Below are positions 37,616 through 64,000 of a DNA stretch of 64,000 bases, piece by piece. Made by a program: the position numbers and the translations under genes. Below the pieces are notes generated by a model. The model was not told the origin of the DNA. It worked only from the letters and a program-made list of their open reading frames with translations, and did no database searches. Source of the stretch: a virus. The DNA lies in IMG/VR virus record IMGVR_UViG_3300050343_000256, positions 1 to 64,000 of that record; one strand, written 5' to 3'. Position 1 is the first letter of the stretch. Every line of letters begins with the position of its first letter.

Positions 37616-37891
37616 ATGACCGATAACGCCACAGCTGCTCGGCTCCGTCGAGAGTTTTACCTTGCCAAGGCGCAAAAGGTCCGCGACCGCCCTGGGCTCA
37701 AGTACTCATTTACTGAGAACGGCAAGATACGCTTCGGCTTCGCTTCAGGCAGCTGCAAGCGCCAGATTCGTGATGCTGTGCTGAAGGCTCACCCCGACGC
37801 CACTTTTATTCCGTCAGGGTCACACCTTCCTCGGTCGTCACAGTCGTTAAAGAGTGACCGCCCTCTGCAAGCAGCTCATAAGCGGCACTGA
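37616..37891 (+). CDS. hypothetical basic protein, 91 aa
   Basis: Arg/Lys-rich protein (AARLRREFYLAKAQKVRDRP ... SCKRQIRDAVLKAHPDATFI). Its last 28 codons overlap the 3' end of the recombinase gene and look non-native, so its original end may have been replaced. Function unknown. Confidence 0.5.
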   Translation: MTDNATAARLRREFYLAKAQKVRDRPGLKYSFTENGKIRFGFASGSCKRQIRDAVLKAHPDATFIPSGSHLPRSSQSLKSDRPLQAAHKRH

Positions 37892-39581
37892 AGTCGATTG
37901 GCTGCCAGTCGATCTCCCCCTCGCCAATCGAAAGGCCAAGAAGCAATGCTTCGCTGTCGACATGAATGCCAATGCCGAGTTGCTTTAAAGCTGCATTGGC
38001 TTGATGACGTTGCTCCTGAGAGCTAGTTCCGTTAATTAGATCAAACTTCAGGGGTTCAATAATTGTCTCCACAGCTTCGAGAGCTAATGGATTTTCGTTC
38101 CTCGACAGCTTGGCCCGTATATCAGCCAGCCGTATGTCGACACTTCGCTCTTCCTGATCTTTGTCTGCGATCCGATGCTGCAGAGTGCTGAAAATACTGT
38201 CGAAAGCTGGACCTCCAATTTCAGCGGCACGGCCAATGCTTTCCTGAATGTTTAAACGTTCGGTGTTGACCTGTTCTTTCTTAAGTAAAAGTCGATCTAC
38301 TTGAGATCGCAGGTTCACAGCTTCTCCTTCTACGTTTCCACTGCCGCTTAATTGCAGCAAGGAATTTAGGTTTATCCGGGACAAGACAATTGCCAATACG
38401 TCACGCATCGGCAAGTAGGGACGTCGACATTCTTCGCTGTTCATTCGTGAGCGACATGCGATATATCTGATCAATGCATTCGGTGGATGGCCTCCGACAC
38501 ACGTGGACATCGAGCCGCCGCATGCACAACGAGTCAGGCCGCGCCCAATCCAATGCATCTTGGTGTTTGGGCCTGGACGATTTTTTGTTCTATTCCGAGC
38601 GGCGATGATCGAGATCACTTCTTCGACTTCTCGCTTTGGAAGAACAGGAGGAAATACGCCCTCAACGATTTCTTTTGGCTCTTGCGCAGCTCCACGAACA
38701 ACGCCTTGCTGAGCGCGTGGGTCGTAGTAATTACCACTGCCATCCTTCAGCTCTCCATTTGGACCCCGCTTAAGAGGCTTCCACGCCCCTTTCGGCTTGA
38801 TCGCTACAGCTCCATAAATCTGGTGTGACGCACGGATCATTGAAGAGAGATTGCTAGCCGTCCACATAGATGCCTTCATCGGCTTGTGGCCCTCTTCGTT
38901 GAGAACTTTTGCCGTCTGCGAGTACCCGTAATTCTTAAGCAGTTCCATCGCCTTGGCGATAGCAACCGCCTTTTCGTTCAGCTCCCAACGCTGACGCTTC
39001 TCATCCCAGCTCACCCAACAAGGAGCGTTTTGCTTCTTCCTGCTTACAACACCACTGGCTAATTGTTTACGAACCTCTTCCCAGTTGTATTCCTGTCGAC
39101 GCGCAAGCCGCAGCGAATACTCATGAGCAGCTTGACATTTCAGGACCAGCATTATGAGTGCTGCGCCATCCCCATCGATTTTCTCTTTGTTGTAAAAATT
39201 ATTGTCTTCTATCGTCACGATCGTGACGTCTGCGTTGATGAGCCTTAGGAAGACTCCTTCCAGCGCCTTGCGACTCTTCATCCGAGATACCCGATCGACA
39301 GCTTCGATAAGAAGTACCGGGTTAGTACCAAGCAAGCGCCGATCAGCCATCTCTAGAAAGCGGTCCAGGGGGCTTCCTTTCCGCATGTGCTTGGCGTGAT
39401 ATGCCGATTTACCTGGATCGCTTAGCGCTCGATCGTCAGCCAGTTCGAGCCCATGCCGATCGCACCAGTTGAGAGCGTCGGATCCCTGCCGGGCAAGGCC
39501 AGAACCTTTGGTCTGAATGATATGAGAGACCCTCTCGAAAGACCAGATCGTGCCTGCCTTGAAGCCCAGATCTCTGTCCAC
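37806..39581 (-). CDS. large serine recombinase (integrase), 591 aa
   Basis: Site-specific recombinase. The N-terminal catalytic domain has the nucleophile S19 in SFERVS and later NPVLLIEAVDRVSRM; the recombinase domain follows, with an Arg-rich helix and NEEGHKPMKASMWTASNLSSMI. A zinc ribbon (CACGG ... C ... ACRSRMNSEEC) and a long coiled coil (about 430-490) complete the large-serine plan. The GTG start at 39581 gives a slightly short N-terminus. Probably phage integration, or inversion of a local segment. Confidence 0.88.
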   Translation of the reverse strand: MDRDLGFKAGTIWSFERVSHIIQTKGSGLARQGSDALNWCDRHGLELADDRALSDPGKSAYHAKHMRKGSPLDRFLEMADRRLLGTNPVLLIEAVDRVSRMKSRKALEGVFLRLINADVTIVTIEDNNFYNKEKIDGDGAALIMLVLKCQAAHEYSLRLARRQEYNWEEVRKQLASGVVSRKKQNAPCWVSWDEKRQRWELNEKAVAIAKAMELLKNYGYSQTAKVLNEEGHKPMKASMWTASNLSSMIRASHQIYGAVAIKPKGAWKPLKRGPNGELKDGSGNYYDPRAQQGVVRGAAQEPKEIVEGVFPPVLPKREVEEVISIIAARNRTKNRPGPNTKMHWIGRGLTRCACGGSMSTCVGGHPPNALIRYIACRSRMNSEECRRPYLPMRDVLAIVLSRINLNSLLQLSGSGNVEGEAVNLRSQVDRLLLKKEQVNTERLNIQESIGRAAEIGGPAFDSIFSTLQHRIADKDQEERSVDIRLADIRAKLSRNENPLALEAVETIIEPLKFDLINGTSSQEQRHQANAALKQLGIGIHVDSEALLLGLSIGEGEIDWQPIDFSAAYELLAEGGHSLTTVTTEEGVTLTE

Positions 39582-47059: not shown

Positions 47060-47319
47060 TATTTAAACACTGGTAGTCCAGTCATAACCTTGCCACCTTT
47101 CGGCATAAGTTTTTCTTGAGACTTAAGCAAGTCAGTTTTCATGGCTTCCATATCTTTCGTGATATAACCAAACTCTTCCGTCAATCTTTCTTCGACTTGA
47201 AGAGCAACATCAGCCTGAAACAGCATAAGCTTCGCCAGTACAGTTTTATAAGCCCCATAAAAAACCAAGTTCAATGCGACTAAATTTGCAGTAACTAACA
47301 ACTTAAATATTAGATTCAT
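47059..47319 (-). CDS. membrane-anchored coiled-coil protein, 86 aa
   Basis: N-terminal membrane helix (LIFKLLVTANLVALNLVFYG) and a charged coiled coil (ALQVEERLTEEFGYITKDM). It overlaps neighbours by one base each. Function unknown; similar plan to the proteins at 28018 and 35128. Confidence 0.55.
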   Translation of the reverse strand: MNLIFKLLVTANLVALNLVFYGAYKTVLAKLMLFQADVALQVEERLTEEFGYITKDMEAMKTDLLKSQEKLMPKGGKVMTGLPVFK

Positions 47320-48437
47320 TATTCTGATCCGTCAACAATTATTCTGGCGTATTGAACAATTACCAAGCCATCGCCACCGGCAGGAACTCCAGTCATTTTG
47401 TAATACCCAGTACCACCACCACCACCGGCATTACCGCCTGATCCGGGCTGAGCGTAGCCAGGAGAACCACCACCACCACCAAGCATCCCTCCATTTCCAG
47501 AATTTGGTGGATACTCAGTGGTGGTATATTTTCCACCACCGCCACCACCAGCTCCAGGCCCACCGTCAGTGCCAGGAACTTGCTGTCTGTAACTGCTTTT
47601 TACGGTGTACATACCTGATGTTCCACCACCACCGCCTAAAAAAATTAAATTTGCATCGATAATCGAATTACCTTTACCTGATTCGCCTCTTGATTGGCAG
47701 CCATCTCCATAAGTGGTGTAATTCATAGAAATGCATCCAGAGCTGCCGCCGGCTCCTGAAAGTCCACCACCTGCCGGGTCGGGATGGTAGGAAGTCGAAG
47801 GAGACGCATTCTTCGGACATGTACTCATTGAGCCGCCACCTGAGCCCCCTGTGTAGTTTCCATTACTACCTACTCCTCCAATTCCGCCACCACCGCCACC
47901 TGCATATGTACTGCCTGAACCACCGGCAAAACCATCGCTAACTCCATAAGGAGCAGGGGCCGAACCGCCTCCGCCTCCACCTGCATTGTTAGAAGCAGCG
48001 TAATAACCACTTCCTCCAGATCCACCTCTTTTATTTACATCTCCACCGACACCTAGTCCGCCAACTCCATAACCACTAGAGCCTTGATTGGCCGTATTAA
48101 ATGAACCTCCATTTCCACCAGTCGCAGAGCAGTGACTGCCAAAACTTGAAGATCCTGCAACTGCATTGGCATTATTTGTGCCGCTGCCAATCGTTACCGC
48201 TTCGGTACTACCAAGTGCGCTTACGTCAATCAATTTGACCGCAAGTCCACCACCACCTCCGCCATACGCAGTAGTGGGAGAAAAACTGTAGTAGTCGTCT
48301 CCCATACCTCCAGCTCCCCAGACATGGACCAAGACTGGCTTTGTTTCGTCTATGTCAGAAGGCTTTGTCCATGTGAATGAACCTCTGCGAGTATAGATTC
48401 TGTATTCGTTGTATAAGTAAGAATTAAAATTCGCCAT
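47319..48437 (-). CDS. glycine-rich fibre-like protein, type A copy 2, 372 aa
   Basis: Starts MANFNSYLYNEYRIYTRRGSF and continues with FTWTKPSDIDETKPVLVHVWGAGG, the phage glycine-rich domain that opens many tail-fibre-like proteins, then about 300 residues of GGGGG-bounded repeats, and the end GGDGLVIVQYARI. Paralog of 49629-50741. Likely a receptor-contacting virion fibre tip or adhesin. Confidence 0.8.
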   Translation of the reverse strand: MANFNSYLYNEYRIYTRRGSFTWTKPSDIDETKPVLVHVWGAGGMGDDYYSFSPTTAYGGGGGGLAVKLIDVSALGSTEAVTIGSGTNNANAVAGSSSFGSHCSATGGNGGSFNTANQGSSGYGVGGLGVGGDVNKRGGSGGSGYYAASNNAGGGGGGSAPAPYGVSDGFAGGSGSTYAGGGGGGIGGVGSNGNYTGGSGGGSMSTCPKNASPSTSYHPDPAGGGLSGAGGSSGCISMNYTTYGDGCQSRGESGKGNSIIDANLIFLGGGGGTSGMYTVKSSYRQQVPGTDGGPGAGGGGGGKYTTTEYPPNSGNGGMLGGGGGSPGYAQPGSGGNAGGGGGTGYYKMTGVPAGGDGLVIVQYARIIVDGSE

Positions 48438-48438
48438 C

Positions 48439-49563
48439 TCAGGCCACCTTGTACTGAATAATAATTAGGCCATGTCCGCCAAATCCGGGATAGCTGGTAG
48501 CACCACCACCACCGCCAGCGCTACCTCCATATCCTGCAGAGTTTTGTCCAGCAGCTCCACCACCACCGCCAAGGATTCCACCACCGCCGGCAACTAGGTA
48601 GGGATTGACTTCGCCATGGGTGCCGCATCCACCACCACCACCACCAGGGCCCCCTGGTGCGCCTGATGAATAAGCAGTTCCACTGCTGACCAACTTGGAA
48701 GTTCCGCCACCTCCACCACCGCCGCCAAACAAGATCTGGTTAGGAGTAAGTTTTACGCCTCCATCTCCTGATTTTGCGGGTGTCCCGTTACCGCCGCCGT
48801 AAGTGACATAGCCGTAATAGAGGCAACCTCCTGATCCACCGCCTCCTAATAAGCCTGGACCTCCATTACCGCAAGCGGCATACGAGCTGTTATCTGCGTA
48901 TTGTCCTGCCCCAGCGGATCCACCGCCTCCGCCTCCTGTGTAAGACCCGTATCCACCAGGCCCTCCGATTCCGCCTCCGCCGCCAGCGCCATACGAGCTA
49001 GTACCGCCACCGGGGAAGCCATCAGAATCGCCATAAGGAGCAGGGGCTGAACCACCACCACCACCGCCACAGTTAGTACCTGTGGAGTAATACGCACTGC
49101 CACCTGTTCCACCACGCTTATTAATATCTCCGCCGATACCTAGTCCGCCAACACCCCAATTAGCCCCAGAACCTTGATTGGCAGTGGAATTACTACCACC
49201 ATTTCCGCCAGTCGCAGAACAATGAGACCCGAAAGATGAAGATCCGCCTGTACCACTTGTCGACTGGTTTCCTGTGCCAATTGCTAAAGATTCAGAAGAA
49301 CCTAAGGCGCTTGCATTTATGTATTTAACGGCGAGTCCGCCACCGCCTCCCCCATAGAGACTACTACTACTACCTCCAGAGCCTCCAGCTCCCCAAACAT
49401 GAACAAGAATTCTCGATCCATCAACTAAACCAGCTGGCTTTTCCCAGGTTATAGAACCTGGATGCCAAAACATTTCAAATTTATTAAATTCTCCTGGGAG
49501 TCCGCCACCGCCGCCGCCGCCGCCTCCGCCTGATCCACCTGTGCCCGGAAATCTTCTGCCCAT
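48439..49563 (-). CDS. glycine-rich fibre-like protein, type B copy 2, 374 aa
   Basis: Type B N-terminus MGRRFPGTGGSGG and a linker LPGEFNKFEMFW, then ITWEKPAGLVDGSRILVHVWGAGG and the glycine-rich body, ending GGHGLIIIQYKVA. Paralog of 50742-51890. It alternates with the type A genes. Confidence 0.8.
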   Translation of the reverse strand: MGRRFPGTGGSGGGGGGGGGGLPGEFNKFEMFWHPGSITWEKPAGLVDGSRILVHVWGAGGSGGSSSSLYGGGGGGLAVKYINASALGSSESLAIGTGNQSTSGTGGSSSFGSHCSATGGNGGSNSTANQGSGANWGVGGLGIGGDINKRGGTGGSAYYSTGTNCGGGGGGSAPAPYGDSDGFPGGGTSSYGAGGGGGIGGPGGYGSYTGGGGGGSAGAGQYADNSSYAACGNGGPGLLGGGGSGGCLYYGYVTYGGGNGTPAKSGDGGVKLTPNQILFGGGGGGGGTSKLVSSGTAYSSGAPGGPGGGGGGCGTHGEVNPYLVAGGGGILGGGGGAAGQNSAGYGGSAGGGGGATSYPGFGGHGLIIIQYKVA

Positions 49564-49628
49564 TTAATTAATTAACGCGCAACAATTGAGCGTCGGCTCT
49601 TGACTAAGTTTAGCGGTTACAGGAATTA

Positions 49629-50741
49629 CTAAGATTCGTGCAATCGTGCGTACTGGATGATAACAAGACCATCTCCGCCTTTTGGCGCTCGATATGACGA
49701 ATAGCCGTTCCCGCCTGATCCACCAGCATTGCCGCCGTCAGCAGAGGTGTAGCCACTGCCAGAGGCACCACCGCCGCCACCAAGAACTCCGCCGCTGCCG
49801 GGGCTTTGGAAAACGTAGTTTGCTGCATCGCTATGGCCTGTCCCCCCACCTCCAGCACCGGGGCCTCCACATGTGCCATGTGCGTGAGCATTGCCGTTAC
49901 TTGTGAAATTCATGCCGCCAGTGCCACCTCCGCCCCCGAAAAAGATTTGATTGGGGGTAAGGATCATTCCGCCTTTTGCATTTTCTGGCTCTTGCGCTAC
50001 GCCGCCGCCGTAAGTTGTGTAGTGATGCCTGGGGGCGCCACCACTGCTCCCAGCCCCGAAAAGCCCACAACCACCTGGAACTTGGTTGTAAGAACTGCTA
50101 GGAGATGCTGAAGACGCAGGTGCAGACATCGAGCCGCCGCCAGAACCAGCGACATAACTCCCATTAGTACCTGATCCCCCTATACCTGCTCCACCGCCAC
50201 CTGCATATGTACTGGCTGAACCACCGGTGAAACCATTACTAGTTCCGTAAGGAGCAGGGGCCGAACCGCCTCCGCCTCCCCCGGAATTTGAGTTGGTTGA
50301 GAAATAACCACTGCCACCTGTTCCACCACGCTTATTAATATCTCCGCCAACGCCCATCCCGCCGACAGCGTAATCAGCCGAAGAACCTTCATTAGCAGCG
50401 GAATATGCGCCGCCATTTCCGCCAGTCGCAGAACAATGAGACCCGAAAGATGAAGATCCGCCACGGGCATTGGAATTATTACTACCTAAGCCGCAGACAA
50501 CAGTTTCGGTAGAGCCAAGTGCGCCCACATTAACCAATTTGACAGCAAGGCCACCGCCACCACCACCATTGCGAGTTTTGGTTGATTGATGATAATTTGC
50601 GCAACCTCCCCCACCAGCTCCCCAAACATGCACCAAGATTGGCTTTGATGCATCTATATCAGATGGCTTTGTCCAGACATGAGCGCCTTCAAACGAGAAA
50701 ATCTCAATAGCTGTATAAAGATAGGAGTGAAAGTTAGCCAT
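49629..50741 (-). CDS. glycine-rich fibre-like protein, type A copy 1, 370 aa
   Basis: MANFHSYLYTAIEIFSFEGA then HVWTKPSDIDASKPILVHVWGAGG; the glycine-rich body and the end GGDGLVIIQYARL are as in 47319-48437. A 65-base gap separates it from the following type B gene, the only real gap in the four-gene array. Confidence 0.8.
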   Translation of the reverse strand: MANFHSYLYTAIEIFSFEGAHVWTKPSDIDASKPILVHVWGAGGGGCANYHQSTKTRNGGGGGGLAVKLVNVGALGSTETVVCGLGSNNSNARGGSSSFGSHCSATGGNGGAYSAANEGSSADYAVGGMGVGGDINKRGGTGGSGYFSTNSNSGGGGGGSAPAPYGTSNGFTGGSASTYAGGGGAGIGGSGTNGSYVAGSGGGSMSAPASSASPSSSYNQVPGGCGLFGAGSSGGAPRHHYTTYGGGVAQEPENAKGGMILTPNQIFFGGGGGTGGMNFTSNGNAHAHGTCGGPGAGGGGTGHSDAANYVFQSPGSGGVLGGGGGASGSGYTSADGGNAGGSGGNGYSSYRAPKGGDGLVIIQYARLHES

Positions 50742-51890
50742 TTACGCGATTACTTTGTACTGGATGATGATGAGGCCGTGACCACCTCTTCCAATCGTTA
50801 CTGAGCTAGGTGAATACCCGGCGCCGCCACCGCCGCCGCCGTTACCGCCAGCACCTGCATACTGATTTTCACTGGCGCCTCCACCACCGCCAAGCATTCC
50901 TCCGTTCCCTGCGTAGTACCTGAAGGCATGCCCATTAGTGGAACCCATGCCACCACCACCACCGCCAGGGCCTCCATCAGCTGCGTTAGCTCCTACGTGA
51001 TATGTAGAGCGAACAGCAGTTGTAGAACCGCCGCCACCTCCACCGCCAAACCATATGAAGTTTGGCTCGATCAAGGCACCACCTGACCCAGTGGTCGCAT
51101 TAATACCAGCACCACCGCCGTAGCTGTAATAGAGATAATCAGTAGACGCGCCTACTCCTCCAGAACCATCCCAACCGGGCCCGCCTTGAGCGCCGCCACA
51201 ATAATTTTGGAAAGCATCACCACCGCGACCGCACGATCCACCGCCGCCACCACCTGCGTGATTAATAGATGTTCCGCCTTCTCCACCTATGCCCGCACCT
51301 CCTCCCGCTGCCGAGGTCGAAGTTCCGCCCCCTCCGCCGTAGCCATTTCGCAACCCGTCAGGATGTGGAGCTGATCCGCCACCTCCGCCTCCTGCATTAG
51401 TCGATCCTCCGTTATAACCAACGCCTCCAGTACCACCTCTTTTATTTACATCTCCACCGACACCTATTCCGCCAATTCCATAACCAGTAGAGCCTTGATT
51501 GGTAGTGTTATAGCATCCACCATTTCCGCCAGTCGCGGAACAATGAGAACCGAAAGATGAAGATCCGCCTAAAGTACCTGGATTTGAATTGCCAAGCCCA
51601 ATAACCAAAGACTCAGTAGCTCCAAGGCTTCCTACGTCGATGTACTTAATAGCTAACCCACCGCCGCCTCCTCCATGTCCAATTGGAGTGCCTTGGTTTC
51701 CTCCACTGCCTCCAGCGCCCCAGACATAAACACGAATACGATTACCACCTAAATTAGATGGCTTCGTCCATGTGAAACTACCAGCGTGACTGTAAGAGCG
51801 AACCATATTAAATTCGCCGAGGCCGGCTCCGCCGTCCCCGCCGGCATTACCGCCACCGCCACCGCCGCTGCCAGGAAATCTGCGTCCCAT
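50742..51890 (-). CDS. glycine-rich fibre-like protein, type B copy 1, 382 aa
   Basis: MGRRFPGSGGGGGGNAGGDG then GEFNMVRSYSHAGSFTWTKP and the glycine-rich body ending GGHGLIIIQYKVIA. First of the four paralogs in transcription order. The very high GGN codon density and internal repetition make this DNA prone to recombination. Confidence 0.8.
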   Translation of the reverse strand: MGRRFPGSGGGGGGNAGGDGGAGLGEFNMVRSYSHAGSFTWTKPSNLGGNRIRVYVWGAGGSGGNQGTPIGHGGGGGGLAIKYIDVGSLGATESLVIGLGNSNPGTLGGSSSFGSHCSATGGNGGCYNTTNQGSTGYGIGGIGVGGDVNKRGGTGGVGYNGGSTNAGGGGGGSAPHPDGLRNGYGGGGGTSTSAAGGGAGIGGEGGTSINHAGGGGGGSCGRGGDAFQNYCGGAQGGPGWDGSGGVGASTDYLYYSYGGGAGINATTGSGGALIEPNFIWFGGGGGGGSTTAVRSTYHVGANAADGGPGGGGGGMGSTNGHAFRYYAGNGGMLGGGGGASENQYAGAGGNGGGGGGAGYSPSSVTIGRGGHGLIIIQYKVIA

Positions 51891-63054: not shown

Positions 63055-64000
63055 TCAATAAACGAAGGAATAAGCAATGGTGATGAAGTCGCGGTTAAGC
63101 ACTTCAAAACCAGCAAACAGCGACCAGATCATGATGATGAATCGTGAGAAATCATCATTGTTGTTCAACAAGATCTGAGCGTTGTTACCACCAATGCCAA
63201 CGCCGACTGCCTGAGGACCGAAGAAAATCATCGGAGCAGCAGTGGTCACCGTGTTGGTGATCGATGCGTCGTTAACAGTTACTTGCAGAGATTTCTCAGC
63301 AAGGTTGGTGGATTCAAACCAGCGAACTCCCTCAAATAGGAATCCCGTAGGCATGATTGGCTGTCCAGCCACGAAACCAGCCTGTCCGTAAGCGGGACCC
63401 ATGCCATAGAAGAAGTTGGCATTAGGAGCCTGCTCAGGTTGCAGGGGGTTGACCATGCCATTACCCGCGTAGCGAGCAATTTCACGGAAGGCGTCATTCT
63501 GCAGTGTTGTTATCCCAGAAGCTCTTTATCTCCTGGTTCTCAATCTTTGTCATCGATTGAGCTCAGACTATATCTTCATCCCTGTGGGATGGAGGGCACT
63601 CGTGGATCCATTACTGAGTTTCCTCTCGGGATCTAGTCGTTGAACCTTCCAGATTGTGATCTGGCTTGGCTGCTGATTCCCCGAATGTGTGAAGGGGTCC
63701 CAGCAATTCACCCTCTGTTCACCCGGCTGTTACCAACCGAGGGCGCAAGAATCGTTTACGCAGGTGCATCATTGCAGTTGGATCTGCAATGCAACGGTAA
63801 TAACCATCAGCAAAGGTTGGGACGTTGCGCTTCCGCATGTCCTTAACAACCTGCAGCAAGTCTGTCTTTACGTCAAACTTGGCTGATTCACCGGCTGCGT
63901 AGTTAAGGAACGGAGCGGCGGATGCCTTGGTTTTGCCGAGTGGGTAGTAATAACCACCAGCATTATCGCTAGCAGGACCAGCAGCTTCTGCTTTGAAAAG
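63055..64000 (-). CDS. major capsid protein, N4-gp56-like, split by a group I intron (partial)
   Basis: Exons join at 64000-63758 (81 codons, 5' end outside the window) and 63501-63055. Exon 1 ends VPTFADGYYRCIADPTAMMHLR and exon 2 starts QNDAFREIARYAGNGMVNPL, giving an uninterrupted capsid sequence through the Y-x-C-I-x-D/H-P ... D-x-F-R-x-x-A-R-Y box typical of N4-gp56-like and related capsid proteins. The later FFYGMGP ... GFLFEGVRWFESTNL part also fits. Frame is kept only if the 256-nt intron is removed; without splicing the protein would end soon after MMHLR. Forms the icosahedral shell. Confidence 0.85.
63502..63757 (-). ncRNA. group I self-splicing intron in the capsid gene
   Basis: 256 nt without an open reading frame. 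The 5' splice site follows a U (exon CTGCGU), pairing with an internal guide GCGC to give the conserved U-G in P1 (GCGU-AA/UU-GCGC, 7-base loop). On the minus strand the core elements are present in order: P AATTGCTGGGA (63708-63698), Q AATCAGCAGCCAAGCC (63678-63663), R GGTTCAACGACTAGA (63645-63632 region) and S AAGATATAGTCT (63576-63565), giving P4 and P7. P8 (63577-63591) and P9 (63539-63561) hairpins are perfect. The intron ends in G at 63502. No homing endonuclease is encoded inside. Confidence 0.95.

Follow-up and report, generated by a model that had tools for sequence, protein, structure and literature searches.

Comparative analysis places an ORF-less group I intron of a cyanophage capsid gene in an intron family concentrated in capsid genes

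The placement of group I introns in phage genomes has been called mysterious, with a preference for genes of nucleotide and DNA metabolism (PMC12350094). How such an intron comes to lie in the gene for a major capsid protein (MCP) is the question raised by a 64,000-nucleotide stretch of viral DNA (hereafter the window), positions 1 to 64,000 of the 84,978-base virus record IMGVR_UViG_3300050343_000256. Judged by its sequence, the minus-strand interval 63502-63757 is a group I intron without an open reading frame (ORF) inside the MCP gene. We consider it very probable that this is an IA-like self-splicing intron from mobile lineages that colonise cyanophage MCP genes, most likely through homing by LAGLIDADG endonucleases. 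The same gene carries another intron which, with the first exon, lies outside the window in the remainder of the record. We number the introns in the direction of the gene, and the interval above is therefore intron 2. The gene is arranged as follows.

Record 64646-64663, minus strand: MCP exon 1, ATGTGGATTGATAACGAT (outside the window)
Record 64436-64645, minus strand: intron 1 of the MCP gene, 210 nt, after codon 6, 678 bases upstream of intron 2 (outside the window)
63758-64000, minus strand: MCP exon 2 as far as it lies in the window, continuing to record 64435
63502-63757, minus strand: intron 2 of the MCP gene, ORF-less group I, 256 nt, after codon 232, phase 0; assigned from RF00028, the restored frame and covariation
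63055-63501, minus strand: MCP exon 3, QNDAFRE...SFVY stop; phrog_1357 major head protein

A preliminary description of this DNA, made from the letters alone, had proposed an ORF-less group I intron at 63502-63757. The covariance search that it called for bears this out: the Rfam model RF00028 matches 63539-63767 (minus strand) across the full model length at 66.8 bits (E 9.1e-15; family cut-off, 50 bits), and this is the sole Rfam match in the window. The 5′ exon ends ...CACCUGCGU, the intron runs AAACGAUU...AACACUG (256 nt, with a terminal G) and the 3′ exon begins CAGAAUGAC. Excision joins CGU to CAG (CGT and CAG in the DNA) and restores the frame, with MMHLR followed directly by QNDAFRE. 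Intronless relatives, whose MCPs are up to 99% identical, read MMHLRQNDAFRE uninterrupted at this site and supply the intron-free alleles with the same exon joint that had been asked for; the proposed coordinates and joint, with a U before the intron, are exact. The P1 helix pairs exon GCGU with GCGC and places a U·G pair at the exon boundary, as the preliminary description had it, and occurs together with P10 and the terminal G. The intron RNA folds better than shuffled sequences (z = -2.9). Its elements are listed below.

63743-63746, minus strand: 3′ strand of P1, internal guide sequence GCGC, pairing with exon GCGU at 63758-63761; U·G pair at the splice site
63748-63752, minus strand: P10 strand AUUCU, 5 bp, pairing with 3′ exon AGAAU at 63496-63500
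63719-63721, minus strand: in-frame UGA, 36 nt into intron 2, before P3 and P4
63711-63715, minus strand: 5′ strand of P3, GAGGG; 99.5% paired over 80 introns, 4 of 5 pairs with double compensatory changes
63701-63706, minus strand: 5′ strand of P4, UUGCUG (element P); 99.4% paired, 3 pairs with double compensatory changes
63634-63638, minus strand: 5′ strand of P7, GACUA (element R); 100% paired, invariant
63566-63570, minus strand: 3′ strand of P7, UAGUC (element S); pairing over 80 introns

Covariation across 80 unique introns of the family backs the core helices, including the P8 and P9 first read from the single sequence. P2, P3, P4, P5, P6a, P7.1, P8, P9 and P9.1 are 87-99% paired, always above shuffled partners, and most of their pairs show double compensatory changes; P7 itself is invariant, and the P3-P8 core with P7 (elements R and S) is conserved. 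P7.1 (GAUCC/GGAUC) is 98.2% paired, with double changes in four of its five pairs; the P7.2 register that we tested was uninformative. Through P7.1, one of the extra P7.1/P7.2 helices of the subgroup, the intron can be classed as IA-like, a level at which IA1, IA2 and IA3 are not resolved. An in-frame stop lies within the first 48 nt in 100 of 104 unique introns, against counts of 82 and 77 for the other two frames, and precedes P4 in 99 of those 100.

Joined, the three exons give a 380-amino-acid MCP frame, and the spliced protein matches phrog_1357, major head protein, in a profile search (E 1.1e-18), as do all 16 relatives tested. The MCP is identified by PHROG profiles and gene order, since its structure prediction was too poor for use (mean pLDDT 35) and no PDB chain matched it. 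Among isolates, Synechococcus phage S-EIVl comes closest, with 68% identity in the MCP (intronless there) and 51% in the terminase, compared with 24% for the terminase of the next phage. By these two proteins the virus is assigned to the S-EIVl lineage, in line with the earlier proposal of a capsid gene in a probable cyanophage. Annotation of the S-EIVl record (KJ410740.1, 60784-62010; contig L085) places two hypothetical proteins across the MCP frame, one of them on the opposite strand. The start of the MCP, which begins MWIDND, was located from relatives that read MWIDNDFPKLLGAELY uninterrupted; a displaced 5′ exon, joined by trans-splicing, had been suspected and was dropped because the relatives show this start.

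Intron 1 is matched more strongly than intron 2, with RF00028 at record 64445-64674 (minus strand) in the MCP gene at 86.2 bits. Its 5′ exon is ATGTGGATTGATAACGAT and its P1 is AUAACGAU/GUCGUUGU; the P1 given by Rfam, in the start-codon region and without a U·G pair, was discarded after comparison with relatives. Identical copies of intron 1 occur in contigs L067 and L099. At L099:8041-8254 the intron is identical, yet the first base of the 3′ exon is G instead of T, and either the joint would slide by one base or residue 7 would become V. Intron 1 is kin to the S-PM2 psbA intron: along about 150 nt it shows 76-80% identity to an intron stretch of cyanophages S-PM2, S-RSM88 and S-SRM01. The psbA intron of these three phages resembles intron 1 but lies in a photosystem gene, not a capsid gene; this location is annotated for S-PM2 and S-RSM88 and reported for S-SRM01 (PMC8557907). 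For intron 2, we found no match among isolate phages comparable to this likeness.

The preliminary description held an ORF-less intron in a capsid gene to be uncommon. The identity of the element stands, but it is no lone case, being one of two in its gene and a member of a large capsid-gene family. To define this family, contigs were gathered by scanning for both intron sites and intron cores; they are metagenomic and partly redundant. Spliced protein-to-DNA alignment required a U before and a G at the end of each intron, and all joints have this form, a rule imposed by the aligner, although some sites were first located without it. In S-EIVl-like MCP genes, introns lie after codons 4, 6 (in two phases), 17, 30, 35, 40, 48, 85, 88, 107, 132, 138, 139, 144, 209, 215, 232, 238, 283, 290 and 349. 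Each of these sites (about 20) is backed by the intron profile, and dozens of contigs yield an intact MCP once the introns are removed; predicted introns in L263, in L265 and at codon 16 of L237 were dropped for want of profile support. The intron 5′ boundaries placed at codon 2-4 in L146, L199 and L205, and that in L087, are tentative. The number of introns per MCP gene ranges from none to six, with six in L147, five in L183 and four each in L141, L185 and L194.

The frequency of introns was taken from a set of 69 full-length MCPs whose ranking used just a C-terminal segment lying clear of most sites and took no account of introns. Twelve of the 69 were called intron-bearing, or ten after removal of the unsupported L263 and L265. 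Presence is patchy even among close relatives: MCP alleles 95-99% identical to the record's own are without introns, and L067, with a 98% identical MCP, has the same intron A as the record, has intron B and is without the intron at codon 232 (E). Introns at the codon 232 site recur in L109, L086, L141, L162, L183 and L194; in the last five they are 370-371 nt long, being extended at either end, and the core has diverged (in L086, 70% identity to the record's intron). Introns at different sites can also be closely related. E132 and E232 are about 90% identical outside P1 (81-83% overall), and E35 and E349, which are 77% identical, have GACUU/GAGUC in common.

The family extends to MCP genes of other phages. 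A narrow pattern of the intron 2 core, which holds no exon sequence, matched 95 contigs, of which 80 were listed; among the matches listed, 79 of 80 contigs place the intron in MCP genes, 43 of them S-EIVl-like and 36 in two other MCP families, phrog_247 (nearest isolates KBS-S-2A and S-H1) and the T7-like phrog_267 (nearest S-SRP02). The MCPs of phrog_1357 and phrog_267 are distantly related at most. The closest cross-family introns, T7-like codon 311 and KBS-like codon 52, are 90.9% identical, and S-EIVl-like codon 40 and T7-like codon 311 are 86.9% identical. An intron tree, whose branch support was not examined, intermixes the MCP families, and many of these sites have the same P1 target, GCCU, with guide GGGC. 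The only bacterial-genome match of the intron search was again a KBS-like MCP. When 94 whole records (2.46 Mb) were searched with RF00028, the matches fell in MCP genes, apart from two in the record of L191, the sole non-MCP contig among the 80. At L191:4091-4572, two introns of the family, separated by about 40 nt, occupy a non-MCP gene without a PHROG match. As a control, a broader pattern yielded 19 interrupted 5′ exons for profiling; three were MCP, and the others include psbA, RNR, DNA and RNA polymerases, portal and scaffold. Since this pattern hits non-capsid genes, the capsid preference is not general.

Long versions of the introns (922-1218 nt) at codons 30, 48, 107, 139, 283 and 290 carry LAGLIDADG_2 or LAGLIDADG_3 proteins. 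The LAGLIDADG ORF of the codon 48 intron is intact in L146 and L205 but carries a frameshift in L199, which reflects either a stage in the decay of the endonuclease or an error of sequencing. A LAGLIDADG_2 gene (PF03161, 6e-9) also adjoins the MCP gene divergently at L003:4749-5937 on the plus strand (record 64748-65936, outside the window). A second LAGLIDADG-like ORF overlaps it, its frame being shifted at all 95 loci, and both are present in nearly all relatives, with introns or without. The likely catalytic acids of the LAGLIDADG_2 protein are conserved, with D in 109 of 109 and E in 92 of 108, although the record has Q at the second.

On the basis of these comparisons, we propose the following pathway. 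The exon end GCGU would be aligned on the guide GCGC in P1 and cleaved after the U with a guanosine cofactor, whereupon P10 and the terminal G would allow CGU to be joined to CAG and the 380-amino-acid frame to be restored. The early in-frame stop would keep ribosomes off the ribozyme core in unspliced RNA. Introns 1 and 2 would be members of mobile lineages colonising cyanophage MCP genes: in co-infection, the LAGLIDADG endonucleases of relatives' introns would cut intronless capsid alleles, and break repair would copy introns in. Small introns would have lost their endonuclease gene, or never had one, and moved in trans or by co-conversion. The sequences themselves establish that these are introns, that their removal restores the frame, that the fold covaries, that sites are polymorphic and that introns related across sites occur in three MCP families; actual splicing and homing, like the reason for which MCP genes are favoured, are things that we infer.

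Several observations weigh against this pathway. Splicing of intron 2 is a prediction from DNA sequence, and its P1 of 4 bp is weak by itself, as an equal score would be reached at 83 of the 297 T sites of the MCP. Neither intron of the record contains an endonuclease ORF, and the LAGLIDADG gene adjoining the MCP gene is unsupported as a mobiliser because intronless relatives have it too. Endonuclease homing also accounts for copying into the same site and not for jumps to new sites, which would need either less stringent cutting by the endonuclease or insertion at the RNA level into the plentiful capsid mRNA; our data do not separate the two. The second of these, taken as a full account, is that excised introns reverse-splice into abundant capsid mRNA at short guide matches (GCCU, GCGU, GACUU) and are then copied to DNA. 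Many sites within one highly expressed gene, the restriction of the introns to MCP, the changed P1 and near-identical cores of related introns at different sites (E132 and E232), the GCCU target common to sites in three unlike MCP genes and the shared GACUU/GAGUC of the 77% identical E35 and E349 would all fit. We nevertheless consider it rather unlikely, as it requires reverse transcriptase and cDNA recombination, whereas the intron-borne endonucleases at several sites offer a known DNA route, and any working intron is expected to have a short guide match.

We also doubt that the MCP preference is the effect of one successful intron clone combined with the search design. The narrow pattern does sample one branch, several contigs are near-duplicates and the broader pattern also finds introns in psbA, RNR, polymerase, portal and scaffold; even so, the exon-free pattern still hits three MCP families at more than 25 sites in all, and the whole-record searches gave no introns elsewhere, except in one record. 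The suggestion of the preliminary description that capsid-transcript splicing could serve regulation finds no support, and it is very improbable that selection keeps such a step. The cores are intact, covarying and located in the capsid gene, but a working core is needed merely to make capsid, the introns vary in position and in number from none to six, and most relatives are intronless (all but ten of the 69 full-length MCPs), including those with 95-99% identical MCPs. Least credible of all is a dead intron or an assembly artefact in a broken MCP gene. The contig is metagenomic DNA, but both introns restore the frame exactly, core pairs are conserved, intron 1 is identical in L067 and L099, and introns at the codon 232 site occur in six further contigs.

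Introns in MCP genes are already known from phages LittleE and Tuc2009, crAss-like phages and Faustovirus. Those of mycobacteriophage LittleE and lactococcal phage Tuc2009 are self-splicing major-capsid introns, as intron 2 is predicted to be, and have like it a U before the 5′ site and a 3′ terminal G; splicing in LittleE has been shown by RT-PCR and protein sequencing (PMC3706429). They differ in being single introns, that of LittleE being 819 nt long with an opposite-strand endonuclease gene, in contrast to the two ORF-less introns of a multi-site family here; the few isolate records that resemble intron 2 include neither of these phages. The nearest precedent for multiple introns in one phage MCP is provided by crAss-like phages of the Delta and Zeta groups, in which group I introns split the MCP into up to five fragments (PMC7886860). 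Those phages have other hosts, many of their other genes are hit and their introns were found via endonuclease genes, whereas the introns described here mostly lack an ORF and occur almost exclusively in MCP. Faustovirus E12 likewise has five group I introns in its capsid gene (PMC6247863), but it is a giant virus of amoebae with an unrelated capsid protein and mixed intron types of 396-3256 nt. A literature search of incomplete coverage found no description of an MCP-concentrated group I intron family common to several cyanophage lineages.

Elsewhere in the window, a large integrase/recombinase (37806-39581, minus strand; phrog_95, 1.5e-31) is encoded in this cyanophage-like genome, and the virus is possibly temperate. 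Four tandem similar glycine-rich proteins of 370-382 amino acids (47319-51890, minus strand) are perhaps virion surface proteins.

Annotation often breaks up the MCP genes of these environmental phages, and surveys of MCP will therefore miss or split them. More tentatively, a capsid-specialised lineage of small group I introns may move between unrelated cyanophages that share hosts, across about 20 sites, with its target choice set by transcript abundance (through RNA-level insertion) or by capsid conservation; its introns might then serve as weapons or shields between co-infecting phages. As a natural data set, the family makes the question of intron placement testable: a single gene offers about 20 sites and holds between zero and six introns, closely related introns occupy different sites, and endonuclease-bearing versions occur alongside empty ones.
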